DNA of 64,000 nucleotides from Neoarius graeffei (taxonomy: Eukaryota; Chordata; Actinopteri; Siluriformes; Ariidae): positions 47,004,559-47,068,558 of the forward strand of contig NC_083574.1 of NCBI RefSeq assembly GCF_027579695.1. The letters are read 5' to 3'. The position numbers and the translations under genes were made by a program. Each line of letters opens with the position of its first letter. Positions within the stretch are counted from its first letter, which is position 1. Under the pieces are notes generated by a model. That model did not search any database, was not told the origin of the DNA, and saw nothing but the letters and a program-made list of their open reading frames with translations. Below are positions 18,591 through 56,515 of this stretch, one piece after another.

Positions 18591-20180
18591 CAAAAAAGTT
18601 GGGACAAAGTACAAATTGTAAATAAAAACGGAATGCAATGATGTGGAAGTTTCAAAATTCCATATTTTATTCAGAATAGAACATAGATGACATATCAAAT
18701 GTTTAAACTGAGGAAATGTATCATTTAAAGAGAAAAATTAGGTGATTTTAAATTTCATGACAACAACACATTTCAAAAAAGTTGGGACAAGGCCATGTTT
18801 ACCACTGTGAGACATCCCCTTTTCTCTTTACAACAGTCTGTAAACGTCTGGGGACTGAGGAGACAAGTTGCTCAAGTTTAGGGATAGGATTGTTAACCCA
18901 TTCTTGTTTAATGTAGGATTCTAGTTGCTCAACTGTCTTAGTTCTTTGTCATATCTTCCGTTTTATGATGCGCCAAATGTTTTCTATGGGTGAAAGATCT
19001 GGACTGCAGGCTGGCCAGTTCAGTACCCGGACCCTTCTTCTACGCAGCCATGATGCTGTAATTGATGCAGTATGTGGTTTGGCATTGTCATGTTGGAAAA
19101 TGCAAGGTCTTCCCTGAAAGAGACGTCGTCTGGATGGGAGCATATGCTGCTCTAGAACCTGGATATACCTTTCAGCATTGATGGTGTCTTTCCAGATGTG
19201 TAAGCTGCCCATGCCACACGCACTAATGCAACCCCATACCATCAGAGATGCAGGCTTCTGAACTGAGCATTGATAATAACTTGGGTCATCCTTTTCCTCT
19301 TTAGTCCGAATGACACGGCGTCCCTGATTTCCATAAAGAACTTCAAATTTTGATTCGTCTGACCACAGAACAGTTTTCCACTTTGCCACAGTCCATTTTA
19401 AATGAGCCTTGGCCCAGAGAAGACATCTGCACTTCTGGATCATGTTTAGATACAGCTTCTTCTTTGAACTACAGAGTTTTAGCTGGCAACAGCGTCTGGC
19501 ACGGTGAATTGTGTTCACAGATAATGTTCTCTGGAAATATTCCTGAGCTCATTTTGTGATTTCCAATACAGAAGCATGCCTGTATGTGATGCAGTGCTGT
19601 CTAAGGGCCCGAAGATCACGGGCACCCAGTACGGTTTTCCGGCCTTGACCCTTACGCACAGAGATTCTTCCAGATTCTCTGAATCTTTTGATGATATTAT
19701 GCACTGTAGATGATGATATGTTCAAACTCTTTGCAATTTTACACTGTCGAACTCCTTTCTGATATTGCTCCACTATTTGTCGGTGCAGAATTAGGGGGAT
19801 TGGTGATCCTCTTCCCATCTTTACTTCTGAGAGCTGCTGCCACTCCAAGATGCTCTTTTTATACCCAGTCATGTTAATGACCTATTGCCAATTGACCTAA
19901 TGAGTTGCAATTTGGTCCTCCAGCTGTTCCTTTTTTGTACCTTTAACTTTTCCAGCCTCTTATTGCCCCTGTCCCAACTTTTTTGAGATGTGTTGCTGTC
20001 ATGAAATTTCAAATGAGCCAATATGTGGCATGAAATTTCAAAATGTCTCACTTTTGACATTTGATATGTTCTCTATTTTCTATTGTGAATACAATATCAG
20101 TTTTTGAGATTTGTAAATTATTGCATTCCATTTTTATTTACAATTTGTACTTTGTCCCAACTTTTTTGGAATCGGGGTTG
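18591..20180 (-). mobile_element. Tc1-like transposon inside the LINE (copy 1, dead)
   Basis: It shares sequence throughout with the copy at 52467-54071. The right terminal repeat (CTTTTTTGGAATCGGGGTTG) is intact and followed by TA. The left terminal repeat lacks about 12 outermost bases, starting at CAAAAAAGTTGGGACAAAG. Transposase pieces are on the - strand at 19872-19549 (paired helix-turn-helix DNA-binding region with [19 protein letters not shown]) and 19518-18949 (catalytic region with [15 protein letters not shown] and [11 protein letters not shown]). A frameshift between them and an early stop after RIIKRKI inactivate it. Confidence 0.85.
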
Positions 20181-22562
20181 TATTACAGTTAGTGGACCTA
20201 AACCATATTTCACCAACATATGTTTTAAGAGGATCAAGTTGAGTAGTCACAAAAGAAGAAGAATATCCTTTCAAGAGCATGACCACTCCCACTGGAATTG
20301 CATCAAAAACAATGGCAAATTGTTTAGGAGTTACAGGTATTTTTACACTCTGAAGAAATTCTTGATAGTTGAAAAGATTACCCTGCTCATTAATAAGTTG
20401 GTTTACTAAAACAATTCCATTCCTAAACCAGTTATCAAAAAAATATAGATTTCTTTTTATAACATATATCCCTATTATTCCAAAGAAAGTAAGTATTTGG
20501 AGAGAAATTGTGCTTATAAATACGAGACCAAGACAAAAGAGCTTGCTTGTGAAAGTTTGACAACGATACAGGAAGCCTATCAATGTTGTAATTGCAAAGT
20601 AAAATAAACTTTAAGCCACCCAATTGAGAAAACACATGACGAGAGATAAAATTCCATATGGACGCAGGTTCTTTTAAGTGCTTTTTAATCCAATTAACTT
20701 TAAAGGTGTTATTCAGTATACTAAAGTCGATGAAGTTGAGGCCACCCTTGTTGTAGTCGTTCATCATAACAGATTTTTTAATATAATGTGTTTTGTTTTT
20801 CCAAACAAAATTATAGAGTAACTGGTCAATATGTTTACAAATTTTGCTATCCACACCCAACGCTATTGCTGCATATGTCAATCTGGATGCCTTCTGCTTT
20901 TGAGAGTAGAATCCTACCCTTCAAAGACAAATCTCTCTGAAGCCACATATTAAGTTTTTTTTGGTCTTATCAATTATGGGGTTAAAGTTAATGCTACACC
21001 TGAGAGTCTGATCCTTAGTTATGAATATGCCCAAATAGGTAACTTGTTCCTTTACTGGTATATTAGAAATAGAAACAGCATTACAACCTTTTACTGCCAT
21101 CAGTTCACATTCAAATAAAGACCTGACGCTAAAGAAAAAACCTGAATAACGTCTAACGCAACCGAGATCTGAGCTGAATCTTTTAAGAAGAGTGTAGTGT
21201 CATCAGCCAGTTGACTAATAATGATCTCTCTGTCTAACACAGACATTCCCTTTAGACCACTGCTCTTAATATGATTAGCCAATAATTGGGTACACAGCAA
21301 AAATAAATACAGGGAAATGGGACAGCCTTGACGAATGCCACGTTTTAATTCAAACCTGGAGGATGAGCCATTCTTTAATTTAATCGAGCTATTTCCATTA
21401 CAATATAGAGTTCTTATAGTTCTACAGAAAAAAAATCATCAAAGCCAAATTTGTTAAGTGTTTTAAAAATAAATTTGTGCTCAATTGAATCGAAAGCTTT
21501 GTAAAAATCCAGAAATAGAATGAAACTGTCATTCTGAATGTACTCAGGATAGTCTAGTATATCTAGCACTAGGCGAATGTTATTTGAAATGTGTCTATTT
21601 TCCATAAAACCTGACTGAGTCTCATCTATGATATCAGGCAAGGTGGATTTTAGTCTTTTGGCAAATACAATGGCTAAAATCTTATAATCATTATTCAATA
21701 GGCTAATCGGGCGCCAGTTGTCAATCATCAGATGGTCTTTTTTAGGTTTTGGCAATAGAGTTATTAAACTTTGTGTCAGGGTTGCAGGAAGGGTGCCTTT
21801 ATAAATACTTTCTTTAAACACTTGCAACAAAAAAGGGGCCAAGTTTTTGGCAAAGGCCTTATAGAATTCGGAGGTAATTCCATCCACACCAGGTGATTTA
21901 TTAACTTTTAGGCTTTTTATTGCATCTGTGATCTCCTTAATATAAATTGGACAGTCACAAAGTTCTTTGTCAGTCTTGCTTATTGGGTTAACAACTAATG
22001 AATTCAGGAATGAGCTAGTACTGTCGTCACAATATTGAGAACTGTATAAATTTCTGTAGAAGTTAGAGCAAAAGTTTGCTATCTGTTTTGCATCATCACA
22101 CACTGTATTCCCTATTCTAAGTTGGTGTATAGTGTTGTAAACTGATTGAGATTTTTCTAACCTGAAAAAATATGCTGAATTTTGCTCCCCTACCTCTAAC
22201 CAACGCCTTCTAGATCTTACATAAGCCCCATCAGCTTTAGCTTTATATAGATTATCAAGTTTACCTTGATAATCAAACAATGTCTCTTTGTCTTCAGGGG
22301 TTAGTTTATCAGGGCACAAAGAGGATAAGGCAGTAATTTTTGAAATTATATTTTCCTCTTCAATTCTTTTTGCTTTAACTAGAGAACTACAGTAACTTCT
22401 GAAAAACTGCCCAACTTCAAATTTAAATAGTTCCCATTTAACTCCATACCTTTCCTCTACTACAGCTTCATTCCAAAAGACACGGATAAGTTCCTTAACC
22501 TTTGCTTTAACCCATGCATGACTCAGAACAGAGCTATTCATTTTCCAATATGAGCTTCTTGG

Positions 22563-22972
22563 CACGGGCGCAGATAGAAGGGGGGACGGGTGGGATTCGT
22601 CCCACCCAGATTTAAATTCACCTCGTTCGGTCCCCCCCCACTTATAGGGAGGAAAAAACGTCTATGCTGTCTTTCTTTGCATAAGGCAAACCTCACGGAA
22701 AAATCAAAAGACTAATTACCATTCGGTTTATTGAGGTGCACAGCAGAATATACATAGTTGCAACAACTCACATAAAACAAAACAAAGACTGATATTCGGT
22801 TGGTTGAGCTGCGCAGACTGCACAGGTTGCGAGCTCGAGCTTGGTTGCTATGGTTACCCACAACAAGTTTGACAGGCATATCGGGGTTGGGGTTGGTTTG
22901 CTGGCAGCTTTGTCCCCCCCCCCCCCCTAGTTTTTTGTCCCCCCCTGTTCAAAAAACGTATCTGCGCCCCTG
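22563..22972. mobile_element. hAT-type MITE, 410 bp, TSD CTTCTTGG
   Basis: CACGGGCGCAGATAGAAGG and TATCTGCGCCCCTG form the ends. CTTCTTGG flanks it exactly (22555-22562 and 22973-22980). Removing it rejoins the LINE frame between the endonuclease and the reverse transcriptase. It contains a run of C at 22914-22927 and no coding sequence. Confidence 0.85.
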
Positions 22973-30958: not shown

Positions 30959-31294
30959 ATGAGTGCTGTAATTAGAAAAAATGGGATTGGTTACTGGGAA
31001 GTTTATCAGGCGAGCCTGGAACGACGACTTCAACAAGGCGAGTGGGATCTGGTGTGCCGGGATGAAGAGTTGTGTAAGGAAGTTGAAGCACGTCTGTCTG
31101 AATGCAGTCCTCAAGACTTCCACCCTCCGCTTGGGCTAGACACACTGTCAGTGATAGAAGCTTCGCTCCGAGCATCACACCACACTTTGGGCCAAAATAG
31201 GCTCAAAAGTCTCGTTAAGGCATTCGAAGTGCTAGAGCTTGCAGCACTAAATCTCTACTTATGCCCATGGCGGAAGGAGTACAAGGTGGTGAAG
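30959..31294 (+). CDS. spata2l: Spata2-like protein (spata2l), coding exon 1
   Basis: This exon encodes residues 1-112 of a 595-residue protein when joined to 32145-33596. The ATG follows a polypyrimidine-rich acceptor (TGTATCCTGTTTTCAG at 30942-30957), so an upstream non-coding exon is likely. It ends at a donor, AAG followed by GTATGC, in phase 0. Residues 1-112 include YWEVYQASLERRLQQGEWD and AFEVLELAALNLYLCPWRKE, the start of the PUB-type region of the SPATA2/SPATA2L family. Known biology: SPATA2 uses its PUB domain to bind the deubiquitinase CYLD and link it to the linear ubiquitin ligase complex in TNF-receptor signalling in the cytosol. The FEVLELAA-LYL-PWRKE stretch resembles SPATA2L more than SPATA2 as I recall them; the paralogue call is inference. 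Confidence 0.8.
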
Positions 31295-31374
31295 GTATGC
31301 TGATTTGTTGAATTTTGTTAAATGGGACCTTAAAAGCTTGATTTTACAATTTGTTCTATGATATTTAAGTTTAA

Positions 31375-32083
31375 AGGAACAGTTCACCGTACTTCCATAA
31401 TGAAATATGCTCTTATCTGAATTGAGACGAGCTGCTCCGTACCTCTCCGAGCTTTGCGCGACCTCCCAGTCAGTCAGACGCACTGTCACTCCTGTTAGCG
31501 ATGTAGCTAGGCTCAGCATGGCCAATGGTATTTTTTGGGGCTGTAGTTAGATGCGACCAAACTCTTCCGCGTTTTTCCTGTTTACATAGGTTTATATGAC
31601 CAGTGATATGAAACAAGTTCAGTTACACAAATTGAAACGTAGCGATTTTCTATGCTATGGAAAGTCGGCACTATAATGACAGGCGTACTAACACCTTCTG
31701 CGCGCTTCCGCAGCGCATTGATACGGAGCTCAGATATCAATGCGCTGCCGAAGCGCGCAGAAGGTGTTAGTACGCCTGTCATTATAGTGCAGACTTTCCA
31801 TAGCATAGAAAATCGCTACGTTTCAATTTGTGTAACTGAACTTGTTTCATATCACTGGTCATATAAACCTATGTAAACAGGAAAAACGCGGAAGAGTTTG
31901 GTCGCATCTAACTACAGCCCCAAAAAATACCATTGGCCATGCTGAGCCTAGCTACATCGCTAACAGGAGTGACAGCGCGTCTGACTGACTGGGAGGTCGC
32001 GCAAAGCTCGGAGAGGTACGGAGCAGCTCGTCTCAATTCAGATAAGAGCATATTTCATTATGGAAGTACGGTGGACTGTTCCT
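31375..32083. mobile_element. Palindromic TTAA MITE in the spata2l intron
   Basis: AGGAACAGTTCACCGTACTT at the left and its complement at the right end (ACTGTTCCT) are bounded by TTAA on both sides (31371-31374 and 32084-32087), the piggyBac-type target site. The element is a near-perfect palindrome about 709 bp long; the centre is around ACGGAGCTCAGATATC (31723-31738). Both strands give near-identical reading frames because of the symmetry; neither is a real gene. It supplies most of the 850-bp intron. Confidence 0.85.
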
Positions 32084-32144
32084 TTAAGATTACCTAAGCT
32101 AGGAATCTGACTTCCTTTTTTATTTTATTTTTTTGGGTAAATAG

Positions 32145-33596
32145 ATGTTCTCAGGCATGTTCACTCACTGCATCAAACCTGCTCTGACGACACAGCAAGC
32201 TAAAGAGCTGTTTGCATTACTCGGATACCAGCCAGCAAGCAGCAATGACGAGGAGCTGAGGCTTGGCACAATACCGGTTCACTCACACGCCCTTCTCCAG
32301 CTGGCATGTGGTTTCTTCATTGCTCGTATAGAGTGCCACCTGCTGCTTACTGCTGTGGCCTCCCTGGGTGGCAGCACAGAGTGGGTGCTTCAAATCATTC
32401 AGGAAAGAAAGCGTGGCTGCACTTTTCAAATAGCACTGGACAGGGCAAAGAGAAAGCTGGAACCTGCTTCATCTGATTCACCATTAGTTCTAGATGCAAC
32501 TCTAGATCTGTACACAGACAACACTACAGAAGAGCATAGTCACATGGCTTCACCACCCAGCCTTCCTTACATTCCACCCAGTGAAAATCCCCGAGCACAT
32601 ATGTCCCGCAGTAACATTTCTCAGTCAGACAAGGAGAGGAATGAAAAGAAGGCACAGTCTGTCTCATCCCTGACCTGTCAAATCAAAGCAACGCTGCAGA
32701 ACACTGACTCGAGTCTAAAGCCATGTGAAAATGAAAGACGGTTTACGACAGTGAGTAATGCCCAGCTTGGTGCATCAATAGAAGGACAACATGTATATAA
32801 CTGTTTAAAGTCATATGACTCCTCCTATCTTAAGCCATGCCTCCAGTGTGAAGAAAATCATAGTACGGATTGCGCTTGTATTCGGAGCTGCACTGAGCAA
32901 GAGCACGAGGTTATGAAGTTTATGCAGCAGCACATGATGGATACACGATCCCACACCAGACAGGATCAGACGCAACAGTGGGAAAATCTACCAAAAGATG
33001 ATCTGAAGCAGCACAGCTGTATAAACAAACCCAGCAACAATTTTTTCTTCGTGTGCCATGATTGTCATTATATCCATGATGTAAACTGTAAGGAACTTCA
33101 ACAGTGTCTCCATGAAAGCCATAATGTGCAAACTACAGGAAGGTTACAGCCGGCTCAAGTAGAACAAGGGCTGACTGCACATACATGTTTTAAAGTAGCA
33201 GGTACACAGTATGCAGTCTGCCATACATGCAACAAATCCCACGACTTGTTTTGTAATGAACTACAGAACTGCAGCAGTTCTGGCCACAATGTGACATACC
33301 TGCTTGAAAATAATGAAACCGAAGCCAAGCCCATGCCTATGCACCAGTGTTGTACATCCGCAGAGCCAAATTTTGCCTGCCTCAATTGCAGAGTTTTCCA
33401 TGCCGTTTCCTGTGATGATAATCAGTGCCAAAGACAACATGAAGTGCAGAGTCTCCGATACGTGTGCTGTGTGTGCTCAAACACTCAGCTTTTCATTCTG
33501 TGCAGGTACTGCTGTGCCCAATATTGCAAAACTTGTTGGTTTAAAAATCCCCTGGAATGCAAATGTGGCATGCCTTTTGATAACACGGCTGTTTAA
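32145..33596 (+). CDS. spata2l: Spata2-like protein (spata2l), coding exon 2 (C-terminal)
   Basis: The acceptor is TTTGGGTAAATAG before 32145. Residues 113-595 follow in phase 0 after exon 1, so VVK joins MFSGMFTHCI, the same junction context as human SPATA2L (IK-TFSGGY). Residues about 113-220 finish the PUB-type region (HALLQLACGFFIARIECHLL). Residues 233-235, DLY in TLDLYTDN, match the place of a conserved LDLY in SPATA2L and could be a PUB-interacting motif. A Ser/polar linker follows. Residues 330-590 hold four tandem Cys/His units and a final Cys-rich module ending ECKCGMPFD. At 595 residues it is longer than human SPATA2L (424, from memory), mainly through this array. The stop is TAA at 33594-33596. 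Confidence 0.8.
   Translation: MFSGMFTHCIKPALTTQQAKELFALLGYQPASSNDEELRLGTIPVHSHALLQLACGFFIARIECHLLLTAVASLGGSTEWVLQIIQERKRGCTFQIALDRAKRKLEPASSDSPLVLDATLDLYTDNTTEEHSHMASPPSLPYIPPSENPRAHMSRSNISQSDKERNEKKAQSVSSLTCQIKATLQNTDSSLKPCENERRFTTVSNAQLGASIEGQHVYNCLKSYDSSYLKPCLQCEENHSTDCACIRSCTEQEHEVMKFMQQHMMDTRSHTRQDQTQQWENLPKDDLKQHSCINKPSNNFFFVCHDCHYIHDVNCKELQQCLHESHNVQTTGRLQPAQVEQGLTAHTCFKVAGTQYAVCHTCNKSHDLFCNELQNCSSSGHNVTYLLENNETEAKPMPMHQCCTSAEPNFACLNCRVFHAVSCDDNQCQRQHEVQSLRYVCCVCSNTQLFILCRYCCAQYCKTCWFKNPLECKCGMPFDNTAV
32796..33578 (+). other. Tandem zinc-binding-type units in spata2l
   Basis: Four units of the spacing C-x2-C-x3-H-x3-C-x5-C-x4-H occur at protein residues ~330-370, 402-446, 458-498 and 512-549; the fourth is x4/x3 in the last two gaps. 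Each has an earlier Cys 10-11 residues before the CxxC and ends in H-N/E-V. Examples are CHDCHYIHDVNC, CHTCNKSHDLFC and CLNCRVFHAVSC. A last module (residues 551-590) has CCVC, CRYCC, CKTC and CKC. Zinc binding is inferred from residue type and spacing. Confidence 0.75.
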
Positions 33597-33633
33597 GGAA
33601 TGACTTTATACCGTATTTATCTAGCTGCTTTAA

Positions 33634-34046
33634 AGGAACAGTCCACCGTACTTCCATAATGAAATATGCTCTTATCTGATTTGAGACGAGCTGCTCCGTA
33701 CCTCTCCAAGCTTTGCGCGACCTCCCACGCAGTCAGACGCGCTGTCACTCCTGTTAGCAATGTAGCTAAGCTCAGTATGGCCAATGGTATTTTTTGGGGC
33801 TGTAGTTAGATGCGACCAAACTCTTCCACGTTTTTCCTGTTTACATAGGTTTATATGGCCAGTGACATGAAACAAGTTCAGTTACACAAATTGAAACGTA
33901 GCGATTTTCTATGCTATGGAAAGTCCGCACTATAATGACAGGCGTACTAACACCTTCTGCGCGCTTCGGCAGCGCATTGATACGGAGCTCAGATATCAAT
34001 GCGCTGCCGAAGCGCGCAGAAGGTGTTAGTACGGTGGACTGTTCCT
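33634..34046. mobile_element. Palindromic TTAA MITE after the spata2l stop (deleted right arm)
   Basis: Same family as 31375-32083. It is bounded by TTAA (33630-33633 and 34047-34050), with AGGAACAGTCCACCGTACTT at the left and GTGGACTGTTCCT at the right. The left arm and centre are complete; the right arm jumps from GAAGGTGTTAGTAC to the terminal GGTGGACTG, losing about 290 bp. It starts 37 bp after the stop codon, so it is probably in the 3' UTR. Confidence 0.85.
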
Positions 34047-34050
34047 TTAA

Positions 34051-34600
34051 AGGCACGTTACCAGATCTGGTTTCATTTGTTATTACAGCCAAATCACTAT
34101 AGTAGATAAATTTACTAGATGGACACAAACCATGCCTTAAGCGTTACTTTGTCTTGAAGTTGTTAAAAAAAACCCTAAAAACACCATGACCTTATCAAAC
34201 AGCTGATATGGTTCTAAACAGCTCTGCAGTTCGAGTTTAATACATAACAAACCTGAAGTATGTGTTTGCTTCCTCATTTTTGGGATACGTCTTAATAGCT
34301 CTTTTGTTTTGTTTTCTCTAAAATAAATGTCTTAGAACTGCTCTTCTGAAAATTCCAGTCTGTGATTTTGAAGTTTGACTGACATTTTAAATCAGTTTTT
34401 TGTGTAGCGATAGTGTTGTTATAAATGTCTGATCACGTGGGATGATTCTTCCCACAAATGAGCATGAAAAGAATTTCCTTAAACTTTACATGTAGTTGCA
34501 CTTATTGTTGTATTAGAATAATGTATTTTAACTACTTATTTTTGTTACCGTGGGAAAAAAAGTTCATTTAAACCACAAATTTTGAACAAATGTACATTTT
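34051..34600. other. Intergenic, between convergent spata2l and pdf
   Basis: AT-rich. AATAAA-type signals for + transcripts occur at 34322 (AAATAAATG). It likely holds the 3' ends of both genes; I see no other gene. Confidence 0.4.
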
Positions 34601-34615
34601 TTTAATGCAGAACTG

Positions 34616-34773
34616 CTATTCGTTGTATTCTTCCCAGTTGACATTAATAAACGTTTTACTGTCCATACGGTCGACATAAAGAATTCCATCAAGGTGATCC
34701 ATCTCATGCTGCAGTATCCTTGCTGGCCAGCCACTTGCTTGCCAGGTGACGGGCTCGGCTTTTTCATTCAGTC
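34616..34773 (-). CDS. pdf: Peptide deformylase, mitochondrial (pdf), coding exon 2
   Basis: On the - strand, after an acceptor (TTCTCTTTTTCCAAAG), the exon starts in phase 1. With the exon 1 base it reads [20 protein letters not shown], then [10 protein letters not shown], ending EEYNE and a TAG at 34616-34618. HEMDH (residues 212-216) is the third conserved deformylase motif, giving two metal-binding histidines and the catalytic glutamate (E213). The match to human PDF ([29 protein letters not shown]) is close. Total length after joining is 241 residues; human PDF is 243. The enzyme removes the formyl group from the N-terminal methionine of mitochondrially made proteins. Confidence 0.9.
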
Positions 34774-34839
34774 CTTTGGAAAAAGAGAATAATCAGAGGG
34801 GTATATCACTAGACAGTTGAGCATTTTAGTTGTAACTGT

Positions 34840-35148
34840 TGTCACAATCTACTATTCTTCTATCTTTGGTTCTGCCCCTGAATTTAACTGTTACCAGTCA
34901 TCTGTTTGTTTTCATTAATCACTTTGTCCTGGTCAGGGTCATGGTAGATCCGGCGCACTGGCCGTAAGGCAAAACAGATGGGACACCAGTCCAGTGCAGC
35001 ACAATGCGCGCACACTGACACACACTCACACACAGGGGCAATTTAGTGTAGCCAGTCCACCTACTAGCAGGGTATTTTAATACTTTTTTTTACATGAAAT
35101 GTCATTATGGAAGACAAATAAATAAACATATGTTTATATTGTGTTATA
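34840..35148. other. Intron of pdf: degenerate SINE-like text
   Basis: GGGACACCAGTCCAGTGCAG and GGGGCAATTTAGTGTAGCCA near 34980-35060 are decayed text of the 3' part of a fish repeat related to that at 37075-37165. No gene. Confidence 0.35.
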
Positions 35149-36729
35149 CAGTGGTGCTTGAAAGTTTGTGAACTCTTTAGAATTTTCTATATTTCTGCAT
35201 AAATATGACCTAAAACAATCAGATTTTCACACAAGTAGATAAAGAGAACCCAGTTAAACAAATGAGATAAAAATATTATACTTGGTCATTTATTTATTGA
35301 GGAAAATGATCCAATATTACATATCTGTGAGTGGCAAAAGTATGTGAACCTCTAGGATTAGCAGTTAATTTGAAGGTGAAATTAGAGTTGTGTTTTCAAT
35401 CAATGGGATGACAATCAGGTGTGAGTGGGCACCCTGTTTTATTTAAAGAACAGGGATCTATCAAAGTCTGATCTTCACAACACATGTTTGTGGAAGTGTA
35501 TCATTCTGAGGACCTCAGGAAAAGCGTTGTTGATGCTCATCAGGCTGGAAAAGGTTACAAAACCATCTCTAAAGAGAGTTTCGACTCCACCAATCCACAG
35601 TCAGACAGATTGTGTACAAATGGAGGAAATTCAAGACCATTGTTATCCTCCCCAGGAGTGGTCAACCAACAAAGATCACTCCAAGAGCAAGGCGTGTAAT
35701 AGTTGGCGAGGTCACAAAGGACCCCAGGGTAACTTCTAAGCAACTGAAGGCCTCTCTCATATTGGCTAATGTCAATGTTCATGAGTCCACCATCAGGAGA
35801 ACACTGAACAACAATGGTGTGCATGGCAGGGTTGCAAGGAGAAAGCCACTGCTCTCCAAAAAAGAACACTGCTGCTCATCTGCAGTTTGCTAAAGATCAC
35901 GTGGACAAGCCAGAAGGCTATTGGAAAAATGTTTTGTGGAAGGATGAGACCAAAATAGAACTTTTTGGTTTAAATGAGAAGTGTTATGTTTGGAGAAAGG
36001 AAAACACTGTATTCCAGCATAAGAACCTTATCCCATCTATGAAACATGGTGGTGGTAGTGTCATGGTTTGGGCCTGTTTTGCTGCATCTGGGCCAGGACG
36101 GCTTGCCATCAGTGATGGAACAATGAATTCTGAATTATACCAGCGAATTCTAAAGGAAAATGTCAGGGCATCTGTCCATGAACTGAATCTCAAGAGAAGG
36201 TGGGTCATGCAGCAAGACAACGACCCTAAGCACACAAGTCGTTCTACCAAAGAATGGTTAAAGAAGAATAAAGTTAATGTTTTGGAATGGCCAAGTCAAA
36301 GTCCTGACCTTAATCCAATCGAAATGTTGTGGAAGGACCTGAAGCGAGCAGTTCATGTGAGGAAACCCACCAACATCCCAGAGTTGAAGCTGTTCTGTAC
36401 GGAGGAATGGGCTAAAATTCCTCCAAGCCGGTGTGCAGGACTGATCAACAGTTACCGGAAACGTTTAGTTGCAGTTATTGCTGCACAAGGGGGTCACACC
36501 AGATACTGAAAGCAAAGGTTCACATCCTTTTGCCACTCACAGATATGTAATATTGGATCATTTTCCTCAATGAATAAATGACCAAGTATAATATTTTTGT
36601 CTCATTTGTTTAACTGGGTTCTCTTTATCTACTTTTAGGACTTGTGTGAAAATCTGATGATGTTTTAGGTCATATTTATGCAGAAATATAGGAAATTCTA
36701 AAGGGTTCATAAACTTTCAAGCACGACTG
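35149..36729 (+). mobile_element. Tc1-like transposon in the pdf intron (dead)
   Basis: The left end is CAGTGGTGCTTGAAAGTTTG after TA. The right end, AACTTTCAAGCACGACTG, matches its complement with small changes, followed by TG in place of TA. The + strand transposase is broken into 35484-35580 (DAHQAGKGYKTISKE), 35612-35880 (TVRQIVYKWRKF frame; DPRVTSKQLKASL, ESTIRRTLNNNGVHGRVARR) and 35814-36509. The catalytic part has WKDETKIELFG, QQDNDPKHTSR and SPDLNPIEMLW, with 34 residues between second D and E. Two frameshifts, near 35580 and 35870, inactivate it. Confidence 0.9.
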
Positions 36730-37074
36730 TGGCTATTTTGATTTGAGAGCAAGGAAGTAAAATAAAATTCTTAGAAATAACTAGTGTTTTGTAAACCTAA
36801 AATAAAGTTTAAAAGTCACATGCAGATATAACCTGCATCAAGAGCTGCCCCAATCACTGAAAAGAGTTTTGTTTGTTAGTTTCAATAATTAATTATATTC
36901 CTGATTATTGAGATCCTGGATTCAATCCTGAGCTCAGTCACTGGAAGCTCATGAGTTCAAATCCGAGCTACTTTTAGGCCCTTGAGCAAGGTCCTTAATC
37001 CCTAAAAACTGTTTGTCTCTCTTCTTAGTTGTAAGTTGCTTTGGATAAAGTAGTGTTTATGTTGTTTTGCATGT

Positions 37075-37456
37075 TCTCACGGTGTGTGTGTTGGTTTCCA
37101 GTTTCCTTCCACCTCATACAAAATACATGAAGGTGGATTGGCAATGCTAAATTGCCCCTTAGTGTGTGTGAGAAAGAGTGAGAGTGTGTGAGAGAGTGAG
37201 TGTGTGCGCATAGACTGGTGTCCCATTCTGCATGTCCCATTTCCAGGTAGATGATGGTAGATTAGCAACACTAAATTGCCCCTTAGTGTGTCTGTGTGTG
37301 AGAGTGCGCGTGTGAGAGAGAGTGTGCGCGTGTGAGAGAGAGTGTGCGCGTGTGAGAGAGAGTGTGAGAGTGTGTGTGTGTGTGTGTGAGAGAGAGACAG
37401 TCTGTGTGTGTGTGTGCGCGCGTGAGAGAGTGCGCGCGTGTGTGAGTGCGCGCGTG

Positions 37457-37506
<50 letters not shown>

Positions 37507-37539
37507 TGTGCGCATGTGTGAGTGTGTGTGTGAGAGAGA
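37075..37539. repeat. Degenerate SINE text and long (GT/GA/GC)n microsatellite
   Basis: 37075-37285 has decayed SINE-like text with two related blocks (GCTAAATTGCCCCTTAGTGT twice, about 130 bp apart). 37160-37539 is dominated by TG, AG and CG dinucleotide runs. Long Ser/His/Thr-rich frames here are simple-repeat artefacts. Confidence 0.8.
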
Positions 37540-37959
37540 GTGTGCGCCACTGGCGGCTCGTTAATAGGGGCGATTTGGGCGACACTCCCAAACAGGGAGG
37601 GAGATTTTTTTTTTTTTATCTACTCCTACTACCAACAGTAATGTCATTGTCCAATTAGGCTAAGGTCGCGCCTGGTGTAGCCACGCCCTTTTGGGGCGAT
37701 TTCTGTCAGGTTCAGATTTGCCCCAAAATCTCCCATTGACACTAATGGTACGTACGTTTTTTTCGAAAATCCTGCTCTCAATGCATTTTCTATTAGGTTT
37801 TATGTGCGCGCACAAGCAGCGTGCTTACGTCATACGCCTGTTGCGCCGCGCAAGTGTTGCCAGATTGGTTTTAAGTGCATTTTGGCGGGTTTTGAACATA
37901 ATTTTGGGCTGGAAAACGCAACTTGCACGGGAAACGTGTGAACATTCTATGAAGAAGAT

Positions 37960-38235
37960 GGCGAGTGTTGAGTGCAACAATACGATAGCGTCTCTGAAAG
38001 AAGTTCCCTTTAGTCGTCGTACCAATGAGGAGAAAACGGCAATCAAACAGCTAGGACCTCCGAGACCGAATTTAAACATCAAGCAAGTGTCTACGAAGGG
38101 GGAGAAGACCTACTCAAGAGGTTTTAACAAGAACTGGTACCACCGGAAAACTTAGCGAGCTGGCTGTGATGTAGTCAATGCTCGTTTTTGCTACCCTTGC
38201 GTTCTCTTCCACCCTGGAAGTAGCACAGCAGACGG
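37960..38235 (+). pseudogene. TTF-type zinc-finger N-terminus of a hAT transposase (relic)
   Basis: The + frame starts MASVECNNTIASLKEVPFSR at 37960 and continues KTYSRGFNKNWYHRK. After an in-frame TAG at 38153 it reads RAGCDVVNARFCYPCVLF. GFNKNWY, then C-x6-FCYPCVLF, is the TTF-type finger seen in ZMYM-like hAT transposases. The stop and loss of all downstream transposase show a dead deletion derivative. Confidence 0.6.
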
Positions 38236-39059
38236 TACAGTGATATCTGATATTTGAATTTACTAGGCAAAAGTTGTGTGTGTGTGTGTGTTTTACCAAT
38301 GGCAGTTTAACATTGCCATGTTTTTGTTTTACCAATGGCAGTTTAACATTGCCATGCTTGGAATATTTCAGTAGCCTCAAGTTCTCTCTGACTTGGTGTA
38401 AATTAAGCATATTTTCAGTTTTTATATATTGTACAGTAAGTGTTCATTGGAGCCAGCAGCACCTTACCTTTTTTCCAACTTGTTAAGCCAAGTTGCACTG
38501 ACTACAAAACCTTGTGTAACCTTGTGTGTGTGTATAGCTAAATAACTAAAGCGTTTTGTGTTCATTGACATGCTTGTAATACTTTAAATTTCCTTTTAAG
38601 GCATGGCTTTCTGGAGGAATTCTTGGGGAAAAAAACTGCAGAATTTATTTAGAATTATTTGTTGTTAAAATGGTGCAATTCCATATAAAAAAAACACATA
38701 ATTAAGCTGCACATGTTTGTTTGATGGTTATGCTTTTCTTCATCTTTTTCAAAACTTAAACACTTGTTTTGGATTTATATCCTGCCACTTTAATTGCATT
38801 CTTTAGAATTGAAGAAATTAGAATATGTTTATAATTAAGAATTTGTGTCTACTTATTATAGAATACTGGAATAATATGAGAAAATAAATGAGTAATGTAA
38901 TATTAATTGATTGTGATGCCAAATGTTTTGCTTTGAAGGCTTCACAATGAATCTTCCTTAGTTTTAGCCTGGCAAGCCAGACTAAATGTGAATATTTGCC
39001 ACTCGTAGGCAAAAATATTTTTGGCCGCTAGGCGGGTGGGTCTAGTTTACTAGGCTACC

Positions 39060-39730
39060 TAATGGCCCTTTTCCACTACCCTTTTTCAGCTCGCTTCAGC
39101 CCGACACGGCTCGCGTTTCGACTACCAAAAACCAGCACGACTCAGCTCGCTTCAGCCCTGCTTAGCCCCTAAAACTCGCACCGTTTTGGAGTGGGGCTGA
39201 AGCGAGCCGAAGCGAGCCGAGTGAGGTTGGGGGCGTGAGCAGACACTCCCCTGTGCACTGATTGGTGAGGAGGAGTGTCCTCACATGCCCACACACGCCC
39301 CGCGAGCACGCTGGGATCTGTAAACACCGCAAACCCGGAAGAAGAAGAATTACGAGAATTTCTGAAGCCTTATGCGCCTCGCCTCATCTATACGCTCTTG
39401 CCAGTATCTGTTGGCGTTGTCGGTGACAACAAGCCACAGCACCAAGACCAGCAACACTAACGACTCCATGTCCTCCATGTTTATTGTTTACTATTCGGGT
39501 TGTGAGACTACCACTTAAAAGCTCACTGATCTGTTTGCGCTGCTTAACGACATCACCTGACGTCCACCCACTTTCGCTAACTCCACCCAAAGTGTCCACC
39601 CACTTCCAGCCAGCACGGTTCAGCGCGGCTGTAGTCAAAATGCAACTTCAATAGCCTCACTCGGCTCGACTCAGCACGGCACGGCTCAGCCCGACTCAGC
39701 CGCGTTTGTAGTGGAAAAGCGGCATTAGTT
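39060..39730. mobile_element. TIR element, CCTTTTCCACTAC family
   Basis: TAATGGCCCTTTTCCACTAC at the left and GTAGTGGAAAAGCGGCATTA at the right are inverted. Inside each end runs a GC-rich series of CAGC/GGCTC motifs (CGACACGGCTCGCG; GGCACGGCTCAGCCCG). No duplication could be fixed. Similar design to 61450-61955. No transposase. Confidence 0.6.
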
Positions 39731-39803
39731 TGCCACCTTTAACTTGTTCAGTGTTGCCACCTAGTGGAGAGAAGAGATATTGTCTATATTGATATCTGAA
39801 TTT

Positions 39804-40178
39804 CATCTCATCTCATTATCTCTAGCCGCTTTATCCTTCTACAGGGTCGCAGGCAAGCTGGAGCCTATCCCAGCTGACTATGGGCGAAAGGCGGGGTACA
39901 CCCTGGACAAGTCGCCAGGTCATCACAGGGCTGACACATAGACACAGACAACCATTCACACTCACATTCACACCTACGGTCAGTTTAGAGTCACCAGTTA
40001 ACCTAACCTGCATGTCTTTGGACTGTGGGGGAAACCGGAGCACCCGGAGGAAACCCACGCAGACACGGGGAGAACATGCAAACTCCGCACAGAAAGGCCC
40101 TCGCCGGCCCCGGGGCTCGAACCCAGGACCTTCTTGCTGTGAGGCGACAGCGCTAACCACTACACCACCGTGCCGCCT
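39804..40178 (-). repeat. tRNA-derived SINE, reverse
   Basis: Exact 13-bp duplication GATATCTGAATTT at 39791-39803 and 40179-40191. Nested in the hAT copy of the pdf intron. Confidence 0.9.
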
Positions 40179-40330
40179 GATATCTGAATTTACCAGGCAA
40201 AAACAAGTTCGGCCAATTGATTTGCTACCTAGGTCAATTTACTTCAGTCCTGTGGACATTTACGGTCCGTGTAGACATAACAGGGGAAAACTGCCCCCCC
40301 CCCCGAAAAAAAATTCAGGAGCCGCCACTG

Positions 40331-40379
40331 GTGTGCGCGTGTGTGAGTGAGTGTGAATGTGTGTGTGTGTGTGTGAGAG

Positions 40380-40415
<36 letters not shown>

Positions 40416-40485
40416 TGTGTGAGTGTGTGTGAGTGAGTGAGAGTGAGTGTGTGTGAGTGAGTGAGTGTGCGTTTGTGCATAGACT
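40331..40485. repeat. (GT/GA)n microsatellite, right half
   Basis: Continuation of the microsatellite at 37160-37539 beyond the hAT insertion, followed by GCATAGACTGGTGTCCCATT, which also follows the repeat at 37207. Confidence 0.85.
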
Positions 40486-40571
40486 GGTGTCCCATTCTGC
40501 ATGCCCCATTCGCAGGGACCGACTCTGGCCAGGATAAAGGAGTTAAAGACTGAAGAAGTGAGACTTGTCAC

Positions 40572-41139
40572 CTGAGACCTCTACCGAGATGTAGCGCGGG
40601 ACAGAAGCCGAGAAGCCCGAGATGCTCTCACAGGCCTCCGGGAAGCTGACAGTGCGTCCGTTTAACACGCGGAGCTGCGGGTTAATGAACACCTTGAGGG
40701 GCACTGAGCGCAGCCCGCGGGCCGCGATGGCGGCTGGAGCGCTCTCCCGCAGCAGCTCCTCCGGATACTCCACAGCGACGATGCGCAGAGCCACTCCGAC
40801 CTGCGGCGCGCTCAGCCCCACACACCGCAGCCTGCGCATCACCGTTACCATGGTGCGAACCACGCGCTGCACTTCCGCTCCCTGCACAGCTGCCGGCTCC
40901 ACATCTGCAGCTCTGCAGCGCAGCACCGGATCTCCCACCTGACACACGCGGCTGTACGGAGGGGCTCTGGGTGCGAGGAGTTTCCTTTTAACGTACTGCA
41001 GGTACGAGCGCGTTTTCACGGCCGTGGACTGAGAGCGGAGCGGTGCAGCGCATGTGGAAGGACACAGACAGGAAGTCCTGCTGGAGGACAAATCAGTCCT
41101 CAACAACCAACCGAGACATGTCCTCAGCTGTCTGTTCAT
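40572..41139 (-). CDS. pdf: Peptide deformylase, mitochondrial (pdf), coding exon 1
   Basis: Encodes residues 1-189 plus one base of codon 190; donor CAG followed by GTGACA. The first ~45 residues are rich in Arg, Ser, Leu and Thr with almost no acidic residues, suiting a mitochondrial presequence. The catalytic domain starts about residue 60 (YSRVCQVGDPVL). Motif I is CVGLSAPQ (106-113). Motif II is EACES (168-172) with metal ligand C170; human has EGCES. With HEMDH in exon 2, all three metal ligands and the catalytic Glu are present, so the enzyme is probably active. The exon is GC-rich compared with flanks. The start at 41139 gives a product two residues shorter than human PDF. Confidence 0.92.
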
Positions 41140-41343
41140 TCTCAGTGCAGTTCAGCTCCTCTGAAGAACAAAATAACACACAGGCTGGAGTTTCAAAAAT
41201 ATACACCGACCCGGCGTGAAATAACGGGACAATAAAATAAAAACCACACACTCAGTATTTAATGCTCATTATTGCACAAACAACTCAAACCCCAAGCCGA
41301 ACTCTTCTCTCTTCGTTTATTCGTCCTTCCTGTAATCCAATAT

Positions 41344-52466: not shown

Positions 52467-54071
52467 CAACCCCGATTCCAAAAAAGTTGGGACAAAGTAC
52501 AAATTGTAAATAAAAACGGAATGCAATAATTTACAAATCTCAAAAACTGATATTGTATTCACAATAGAACATAGACAACATATCAAATGTCGAAAGTGAG
52601 ACATTTTGAAATTTCATGCCAAATATTGGCTCATTTGAAATTTCATGACAGCAACACATCTCAAAAAAGTTGGGACAGGGGCAATAAGAGGCTGGAAAAG
52701 TTAAAGGTAGAAAAAAGGAACAGCTGGAGGACCAAATTGCAACTCATTAGGTCAATTGGCAATAGGTTGTTAACATGACTGGGTATAAAAAGAGCATCTT
52801 GGAGTGGCAGCGGCTCTCAGAAGTAAAGATGGGAAGAGAATCACCAATCCCCCTAATTCTGCGCCGATAAATAGTGGAGCAATATCAGAAAGGAGTTCGA
52901 CAGTGTAAAATTGCAAAGAGTTTGAACATATCATCATCTACAGTGCATAATATCATCAAAAGATTCAGAGAATCTGGAAGAATCTCTGTGCGTAAGGGTC
53001 AAGGCCGGAAAACCATACTGGGTGCCCGTGATCTTCGGGCCCTTAGACGGCACTGCATCACATACAGGCATGCTTCTGTATTGGAAATCACAAAATGGGC
53101 TCAGGAATATTTCCAGAGAACATTATCTGTGAACACAATTCACCGTGCCATCCACCGTTGCCAGCTAAAACTCTATAGTTCAAAGAAGAAGCCGTATCTA
53201 AACATGATCCAGAAGTGCAGACGTCTTCTCTGGGCCAAGGCTCATTTAAAATGGACTGTGGCAAAGTGGAAAACTGTTCTGTGGTCAGACGAATCAAAAT
53301 TTGAATTTCTTTATGGAAATCAGGGACGCCGTGTCATTCGGACTAAAGAGGAGAAGGACGACCCAAGTTGTTATCAGCGCTCAGTTCAGAAGCCTGCATC
53401 TCTGATGGTATGGGGTTGCATTAGTGCGTGTGGCATGGGCAGCTTACACATCTGGAAAGACACCATCAATGCTGAAAGGTATATCCAGGTTCTAGAGCAA
53501 CATATGCTCCCATCCAGACGACGTCTCTTTCAGGGAAGACCTTCCATTTTCCAACATGACAATGCCAAACCACATACTGCATCAATTACAGCATCATGGC
53601 TGCGTAGAAGAAGGGTCCGGGTACTGAACTGGCCAGCCTGCAGTCCAGATCTTTCACCCATAGAAAACATTTGGCGCATCATAAAACAGAAGATACGACA
53701 AAAAAGACCTAAGACAGTTGAACAACTAGGATCCTACATTAGACAAGAATGGGTTAACATTCCTATCCCTAAACTTGAGCAACTTGTCTCCTCAGTCCCC
53801 AGACGTTTACAGACTGTTGTAAAGAGAAAAGGGGATGTCTCACAGTGGTAAACATGGCCTTGTCCCAACTTTTTTGAGCTGTGTTGTTGTCATGAAATTT
53901 AAAATCACCTAATTTTTCTCTTTAAATGATACATTTTCTCAGTTTAAACATTTGATATGTCATCTATGTTCTATTCTGAATAAAATATAGAGTTCTGAAA
54001 CTTCCACATCATTGCATTCCGTTTTTATTTACAATTTGTACTTTGTCCCAACTTTTTTGGAATCGGGGTTG
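52467..54071 (+). mobile_element. Tc1-like transposon, 1,605 bp (copy 2, near intact)
   Basis: CAACCCCGATTCCAAAAAAG and its complement CTTTTTTGGAATCGGGGTTG are the ends, each next to TA (52465-52466 and 54072-54073). A second TTGGGACA block recurs inside. The + strand transposase fills 52775-53851. Confidence 0.92.
52775..53851 (+). pseudogene. Tc1-type transposase, one premature stop
   Basis: The ATG at 52775 opens MTGYKKSILEWQRLSEVKMG. A TAA at about 52868-52870 replaces the CAA (Gln) of the copy at 18591-20180. From 52874 the frame is open for 325 residues to TAA. The N-terminal region holds the paired helix-turn-helix ([20 protein letters not shown]) and a GRKT basic motif. The catalytic triad is D in WSDESKFE, D in HDNAKPH and E in SPIENIW, with 34 residues between the last two (DD34E). 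One base change separates it from a full-length frame of about 358 codons. A shorter product from the ATG at 52874 would lack the first part of the DNA-binding region. Confidence 0.85.
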
Positions 54072-54204: not shown

Positions 54205-54825
54205 TCAATAGATCATCAGTTGTGCTGTGTCCTGCATGTCATTGCTCTCATCCATGGCCAAAGCAAAAAACTCGAATTCTGACGCTCTCTCATTCAGCTG
54301 GTCATACACGTTGTCCCCCAAATCTTCGGTTCGCCTGGTCATAGTAGGTGCGGAGAGACTCACCGTGTTGAGCGCATCCTTCTTGTCGGGACACACCTCC
54401 TCGGCCACAGCAAGCATGCATACTTTAACAAAGTCCCCATCAGTAAACGGCTTTCCATGGGTAGCTAGTAGGTGAGCTACCTTATAGCTAGCTCGGACAG
54501 CAGCCTGGTTGATCTGGGTTTGGCGAAGGAATACATTCTGTTGTGCAGCCAGTCTGCATTTCATCCTCTGAATCCTGTCTTCTCTTGTTTGCCCTCGCAA
54601 ACTAGCATACTCTTTGTGACGGGTTTCGTAGTGACGACGCAGATTATATTCTTTGAAAACCAACACACTTTCTTTACATACAAGACAAACTGCATGGTCC
54701 TTACACCAAATGAAAAAATAATCGGTGGTCCACTGTTCTTTAAAAACTCTGCACTCTCTGTCAACTTTTCGCTGACCGCTAGCCATTTTGCTGTCCTGAA
54801 CACTGACAGTTCTCTGCGCGTGCAC
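54205..54825 (-). pseudogene. hAT transposase N-terminal region with BED-type finger (truncated)
   Basis: On the - strand the frame reads MASGQRKVDRECRVFKEQWT from 54786 (an upstream ATG at 54825 is also in frame). It continues through CLVCKESVLVFKEYNLRRHY, ETRHKEY (C-x2-C...H-x4-H finger), GKPFTDGDFVKVCMLAVAEE and EFFALAMDESND. This matches the N-terminal third of GTF2IRD2/ZBED-like hAT transposases, where the ALAMDESND block contains the first catalytic Asp. Translation stops after DMQDTAQLMIY. The remaining catalytic and dimerisation regions are absent, so this is a deletion derivative. Confidence 0.75.
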
Positions 54826-56515
54826 TGCCTGTCACTGCTTAATCGCAAGCATATGACGAAAATTCGGAAAATATAAATAGTTAATTTTATAACTAAATAT
54901 CAATTTTAATTGATAAAATCAACAAAATACAAGATGCAGACATGTTATTATTTGCCAAAAAGCAATTTAAAAAAATAGGCCATAGGGCTGGTTCAAGTGG
55001 TGGGGGCCGAGGGGCTGGGGGGCCGGTCAAAGGGGGGTGGCGGGCTGGAGTCGGCCCGCGAGCCATAGTTTGATGACCCCTGATGTAGAGAATGAACAGT
55101 TTTGGACCCAATACTGACCCCTGGGGGACACCACAAGCAATGTCCAAGCATGAGGAAGTGTAATCTCCCAACTTCACAAACTGTCTCCTATCCCTTAAAT
55201 AACTTTTCACCCAGTGCAAAACTATCCCCCTGATCCCATACCGTTCCAGTTTATTGATTAATATATCATGATTGATTGTGTCGAAAGCTTTCTTGAGGTC
55301 GATGAATATTCCACTTGCGTACTGTTTGTGATCTATAGCGTTAGTGATTTCCTCAACTGATTCCATTCATGCCAGTGATGTTGAACTGTTTGATCTAAAT
55401 CCGTATTGACTATCAGAGAGTAATTTATGCTTATCCAGGAATTTGTCTAATCTGTTGTTGAATATTTTTTCTAGAATTTTTGAGAATTGTGGTAATAAAG
55501 AAACAGGCATATAGTTTGTGTAGTGGTGTCTAGCCCCAGTTTTATACAACGGCACAACTTTAGCTATTTTCATTTTGTTTGGAAATTTGCCAGTTTGGAA
55601 TGATAAGTTACAGATGAAAGTTAATGGTTTTGAAATTCCCTCAATAACCCTTTTCACAATTTTCATATCAATGTTATCACAATCAGTAGATGTTTTATGT
55701 TTACAGTTTTTTACAATATCAATTATTTCTTTTTCTTCCACTGCTGTGACAAACACTGAGCTTTGATTTCTATCTATAAGGTTATCATTCCAATCCTGCG
55801 ATGACGATGGATCAGGGATTTTTTCTGCCAGGTTTGGTCCAACACTTACAAAAAATGATTAAAACTATTAACTATATCATCTATATTGTCTATCTTAATG
55901 TTGTTATCTATAAAGTACTGAGGGTAACATTGTCTAGAGCCATTTTTGATTATATTATTTAATAAATCCCATATTCCTTTAATATTGTTTTTATTTTTAT
56001 TTAATATTTCATGATAGTATTCCTTTCTGCTAGCTCTAATAATATTGGTTAACTTATTTTTATATTTTTTATATTTATTCTCTGCCTCTTTAGTTTTCTG
56101 TTTTATGAATTCTCTATACAGCATATTTTTCTTTTTACAGGCATTTTGTAATCCCTTGGTGATCCATGGTCGATCCGTGTATTTATGTTTCCTGCTATAT
56201 TGTTTAATTGGACAATTTTTGTTATATAGTGATGCAAATATCCTCAAAAATGTTTCATATGCATTGTCAATATCATTATTCTTGTATATAGCATCCCAGT
56301 TTTGCACTAGCAAGTCATTCTTAAATGCATTCATGTTTTCCTCTGTCCTCAGTTGTCTATATATTGGTCTTGTATCTGGATGATTTCCTTTAAAATTGCC
56401 GTCATAAACTGTAAAAACTGGTAGGTGGTCACTGATGTCAATGATAAGTAATCTGCTCACAGTATTGTTTTCAATGTCATTAGTGAATATGTTGTCGATT
56501 TAATGTGGAACTATA

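Follow-up and report, generated by a model that had tools for sequence, protein, structure and literature searches.

In mammals, SPATA2 is the adaptor between the enzyme CYLD and the machinery of linear ubiquitin. Its relative SPATA2L is, in human, a protein of 424 aa with FSG at position 114, a DLYR PUB-interacting motif (PIM) and probably one HxC..CxxC..H..C..C..H unit. According to PMC5031558, SPATA2 connects CYLD to receptor complexes and forms a 2:2 complex with it, and in the human cells tested SPATA2L is no simple replacement; human SPATA2L is itself a reported CYLD interactor (PMC5031558, PMC8511506). A repeated zinc module in SPATA2L was mentioned neither in the titles and abstract openings of the literature on SPATA2 and SPATA2L, among the matches listed, nor in passages of PMC5135002, PMC5031558, PMC8511506 and PMC8213371. 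Here we describe a spata2-like gene of the catfish Neoarius graeffei, located in a window of 64,000 nucleotides (contig C6, 47.00-47.07 Mb). The gene is intact, with two coding exons joined in phase 0 through GT-AG sites to encode 595 residues. Its C-terminal region carries four tandem homologous Cys/His units, plausibly zinc-binding, followed by a terminal Cys8 module, against a presumed single unit in human SPATA2L.

Four Cys/His units in tandem

The array and the module that follows it comprise:

32790..32906, + strand: unit 1 (U1), aa 328-366; found by motif, ligand ladder and leave-one-out profile
33012..33122, + strand: unit 2 (U2), aa 402-438; found by motif, ladder, leave-one-out profile and structure model
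33180..33287, + strand: unit 3 (U3), aa 458-493; found by motif, ladder and leave-one-out profile
33342..33440, + strand: unit 4 (U4), aa 512-544; found by motif, ladder and leave-one-out profile
33465..33566, + strand: terminal Cys8 module, aa 553-586, CxxC-x8-CxxC-x4-CxxC-x7-CxC; related to M1, a module of a paralogue on contig C13

An earlier note on this DNA had reported a short motif three times at exact spacing and once more with two small changes, over positions 32796-33578. Both statements hold up well. The strict form, C-x2-C-x3-H-x3-C-x5-C-x4-H, is present at three places of the 595-residue protein (aa 344-366, 416-438 and 471-493), and the fourth copy (aa 524-544) is a relaxed match with two spacings each one residue shorter. 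Together with the terminal module, the units run from 32790 to 33566, near the range first given. Shuffles of the last 270 residues, which contain 32 Cys and 18 His, yielded on average 0.000155 strict and 0.000855 relaxed matches, and at least three relaxed matches appeared in 0 of 200,000. The Cys/His motif is only part of the unit, as the earlier definition had missed an HxC pair (H-x3-C in U1) that lies 9-11 residues upstream of the short motif in each case. Every unit presents eight candidate ligands as four pairs.

From the units themselves we derived an eight-ligand ladder: pair 1 [H/C]x1-3C, pair 2 CxxC, pair 3 [H/C]x2-3C and pair 4 Cx1-6[H/C]. It matched the spata2-like protein five times (U1-U4 and the terminal module), a count that none of 20,000 shuffled versions of aa 221-595 reached. 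A looser ladder, with two limits widened by one residue, again gave five matches and 0 of 20,000 shuffles. Profiles built from three units recovered the fourth with 27.3 bits for U2, 26.5 for U3, 11.3 for U1 and 5.4 for U4; the independent E-value (i-E) of U4 was 0.0027, and such E-values are flattering because the database consisted of three sequences only.

When the units were compared in pairs against 2000 shuffles with Cys and His kept in place, U2-U3 (2 shuffles as good) and U2-U4 (18) were above chance. The pairs U1-U2 (301), U1-U3 (343), U1-U4 (346) and U3-U4 (693) were not. Since only the first two pairs clearly beat these shuffles, the likeness of U1 resides mainly in its ligands and their spacing. 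Taken as a set, the units keep the distances between ligands and some of the residues around them.

Predicted fold of the units

The structure of U2 was predicted from an alignment of the four units only. Mean predicted local distance difference test (pLDDT) was 80.1, with a predicted template modelling score (pTM) of 0.57, and four further models reached pLDDT 78.9, 76.1, 73.7 and 38.4. The order of strands and helix in the model is ZZ/B-box-like. A single-sequence AlphaFold prediction of the C-terminus (272 residues, 32778-33593) had pLDDT 33.6 and was discarded.

Among the 27 VIA matches listed for the U2 model, 17 were ZZ domains and 5 were B-boxes by title; 7z36 and 2yvr, presumably B-box structures too, were also present. 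About 33 of 43 Foldseek rows were ZZ, B-box, ZnF-UBP or UBR-box (ZZ, 10; B-box or KAP1/2yvr, 10; HDAC6 ZnF-UBP, 12, three of them with incomplete titles; UBR-box, 1). These matches were weak, and the U2 structure searches gave no significant score to any known family. ZZ fingers (p62/SQSTM1, HERC2, CBP) supplied the top structural rows and share with the units eight ligands in four pairs, while B-boxes (TRIM proteins, CYLD, HOIP) formed the second group in the VIA list and recurred among the Foldseek rows. ZZ, B-box and UBR-box domains are grouped as RING-like cross-braced treble clefs in PMC4999995.

In Pfam, U1-U4 had neither a ZZ nor a zf-B_box match; a weak zf-B_box match, below cut-off (E 0.049), was confined to a second module, M2, of the C13 paralogue. 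The ligands of the units read HxC/CxxC/HxxxC/CxxxxH, whereas the ZZ set is CxxC/CxxC/CxxC/HxxH. No Pfam family scored above cut-off in the C-termini of the spata2-like protein and the C13 paralogue, and leads to DUF2459, AcrIC5 and Papo_T_antigen, all below cut-off, were treated as chance. The RNA polymerase subunit Rpb12, the sole PDB profile match (E 0.027), was rejected as a relative of the units, its first ligand pair being absent.

This lack of any significant sequence or structure score, with Rpb12 as the one imperfect profile match, is what a private class of zinc module would give, its resemblance to ZZ and B-box being convergent and not by descent. The same order of ligand pairs, a spacing similar to that of ZZ and B-box domains, and the leaning of the C13 module M2 towards B-box argue otherwise, and we regard a private class as a real but somewhat doubtful prospect. 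A different view would dispense with folded domains altogether and see in the Cys/His pattern a redox or disordered metal-buffering tail, consistent with the low pLDDT of the whole region when no alignment was supplied and with units that match no Pfam zinc finger. However, the units have their ligand spacing and some of the residues beside the ligands in common, and U2 folds at pLDDT 80 with its ZZ/B-box-like order, which makes such a tail quite improbable. Each module is predicted, from U2 only, to form a small domain in which two zinc ions are cross-braced, RING-like in the manner of ZZ and B-box. The zinc-binding role suggested earlier is plausible on the strength of this two-zinc-type model, but the structural matches behind it are weak.

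The PUB-like domain and a putative HOIP-docking motif

The remainder of the coding sequence is arranged as follows:

30959..31294, + strand: coding exon 1, aa 1-112; N-terminal half of the PUB-like domain; donor AAG/GTATGC
32145..33596, + strand: coding exon 2 including the stop, aa 113-595; 483-codon open frame behind an AG acceptor
32148..32414, + strand: C-terminal half of the PUB-like domain, from Pfam PF21388 and alignment to human SPATA2
32505..32519, + strand: DLYTD, PIM-like by sequence, aa 233-237

A splice-acceptor-like CCTGTTTTCAG directly 5' of the ATG suggests an extra exon in the 5' untranslated region (UTR).

That the protein is spata2-like, as first proposed, is upheld by a match to PF21388 (SPATA2_PUB-like) across both exons. 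In the Pfam search, exon 1 aligned to model positions 5-98 with 36.5 bits (E 4.9e-9), above the curated cut-off of 27 bits. The start of exon 2, at 22.8 bits (E 7.6e-5) below cut-off taken alone, extends the same model through positions 100-185, continuously over the splice junction. Both halves have their best PDB match in 5ljm, the PUB domain of human SPATA2 (exon 1, E 4.4e-5; exon 2, E 0.26).

A second hallmark of the SPATA2 family is a HOIP-docking PIM, for which PMC5031558 gives the pattern Asp-Leu/Met-Tyr, and, in human SPATA2, D336 L337 Y338 T339 followed by D340. DLYTD at aa 233-237 fits this pattern as a sequence motif and is identical to the human PIM plus its following residue. The protein resembles human SPATA2 (PUB, PDB 5ljm; PIM with HOIP, PDB 5ljn) in having the PUB domain at the same place and DLYT followed by D. 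At the CYLD-binding surface, F114 S115 align with human Y114 T115 (human numbering from PMC5031558; the 5ljm chain-to-protein offset of 4 was inferred from the construct, aa 7-219), and both paralogues introduced below have F-T at these positions.

Paralogues and the age of the array

A PF21388 profile search of the genome found three genes. The spata2-like gene scored 34.5 and 24.8 bits in this search, and the other two were:

C13:3514880-3516069: SPATA2-type paralogue, 122.4 and 97.4 bits (two exons)
C28:55622461-55624242: third SPATA2-family gene, 48.3 and 64.3 bits

Aligned to human SPATA2, the PUB half in exon 2 gave 51.7 bits for C28, 46.8 for C13 and 13.3 for the spata2-like gene, from queries of differing length. 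Because C13 and C28 score higher on both human SPATA2 and PF21388, both appear SPATA2-like in their PUB domain, and the gene on C6 is the divergent one. From sequence, it is probably a divergent, SPATA2L-type member of the family. Its nearest recognised gene is the peptide deformylase gene pdf, with which it lies tail to tail, and tcf25- and cog8-type genes are also on C6, ~40 Mb away; the human counterparts of tcf25, cog8 and pdf are at 16q. Gene-order searches gave no match for FANCA, where the controls were equally silent, and none on C6 for VPS9. Gene order contributes little to placing the gene.

In the C13 paralogue, DLYT is followed by two Cys modules, M1 and M2, whose ligands come in the order seen in the units. 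Within the stretch C13:3508000-3517900, both modules lie after the PIM and a His-rich linker separates them. The C28 gene (stretch C28:55621000-55630900) has neither DLYT nor an eight-ligand module. The first ladder found 0 matches in C13 and C28, M1 and M2 each being off by one residue; the looser one detected M1 and M2 in C13 (0 of 20,000 shuffles reach two) and none in C28. Counted with the looser ladder, the spata2-like, C13 and C28 genes hold five, two and zero modules, and these counts make the eight-ligand order look like a family feature.

The unit in its narrow sense is another matter: by profile it is present in the spata2-like gene only, with C13 and C28 negative. Kinship by descent between U1-U4 and M1/M2 was not supported, as profile scores were negative, and the best unit-module pair, U4-M2, was matched in 42 of 1000 full shuffles, or in 151 of 1000 when Cys and His were kept. 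A single-protein search of the genome for the unit gave nothing below E 0.1 besides the spata2-like gene. Candidates on C1 (E 0.154) and C3 (E 4.51), both with stops, were taken as chance, and no relative was confirmed in the viral contigs searched.

The terminal module had been noted earlier as a fifth Cys-rich module. It does follow the array, but it is a SPATA2-type module that aligns with M1 of C13, not a unit. Its score against the unit profiles is negative, and its alignment with M1 scores 64 (shuffles 29.9 +/- 5.6, 0 of 1000 as high; 2 of 1000 equal it with Cys and His kept), which together rule out a fifth unit. As the module is common to the C13 paralogue, this part of the C-terminal region is older than the family split.

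The units themselves also diverged long ago. Over 25 core residues, U1-U2 share 7, U1-U3 share 7 and U2-U3 share 13; the cores of U1 to U3 are identical at 31-43 of 75 bases; and no DNA tandem repeat was found across the array. Low core identity without such a repeat shows that the duplication is old. Together with a terminal module that predates the family split, this is consistent with a multi-unit array being the ancestral SPATA2L state, at least in fishes, that was later reduced in mammals, in which case nothing was multiplied here. On the other hand, neither C13 nor C28 has the unit by profile, so the array is not family-wide, and we consider an ancestral array an evenly balanced proposition. 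The multiplication put forward earlier is a possibility beside such a loss. The unit profile gave 19.0 bits for a putative fragment of human SPATA2L, a score reached by 24 of 2000 shuffles with Cys and His kept, and we treat it as a lead only.

Surroundings in the window

Intron 1 consists mostly of a foldback element (31366-32092) with two 358-nt arms, 98% complementary and 11 nt apart, so that the pre-mRNA would form a very long hairpin. A shorter copy (33628-34052) starts ~30 nt downstream of the stop, within what is presumably the 3' UTR; it has 25-nt perfect terminal inverted repeats and is 96-97% like the intron copy across matched stretches. Other features of the window are:

about 34616-41151, - strand: peptide deformylase (pdf); Pep_deformylase in two pieces, E 6e-24 and 4.8e-13
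18952-19548 (-), 35808-36506 (+) and 52871-53848 (+): transposase frames; DDE_3, E 6.1e-13 to 3.3e-15, one with a Tc3-type helix-turn-helix
6575-7156 (+) and 21417-22661 (-): reverse transcriptase (RVT_1) frames, E 3.2e-8 and 1.9e-17
54208-54831, - strand: Spin-doc zinc-finger frame, E 2.8e-11

Proposed role

We lean towards the view that the spata2-like protein is a SPATA2L-type adaptor with a PUB domain, a PIM and an array of probable zinc modules. By homology, the PUB domain would bind the catalytic domain of CYLD and DLYTD would engage the PUB domain that HOIP carries, and these two contacts together would bring CYLD to the linear-ubiquitin ligase. The C-terminal ~265 residues would add four homologous eight-ligand modules and the Cys8 module common to the SPATA2-type paralogue, an array that most likely serves as repeated protein-interaction sites. 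Its valency might be raised through self-association, by analogy with the B-box of CYLD, which dimerises CYLD according to PMC5031558, where HOIP is also described as carrying a CYLD-like B-box. Alternatively, valency could come from binding a partner that is itself repeated, for instance ubiquitin chains.

A more far-reaching version, which we think unlikely, is a multivalent SPATA2L scaffold, either particular to this lineage or common to non-mammals at large. Its four ZZ/B-box-like modules would self-associate or grip ubiquitin chains and cluster CYLD on the linear ubiquitin chain assembly complex (LUBAC), with the number of units setting the strength of linear-ubiquitin editing, a lever that mammals would have lost or never had. 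For the adaptor itself, the repeated, probably zinc-binding module gives the C-terminus an architecture and a candidate role, that of valency, and the number of eight-ligand modules is a quantity that can be counted across vertebrates.
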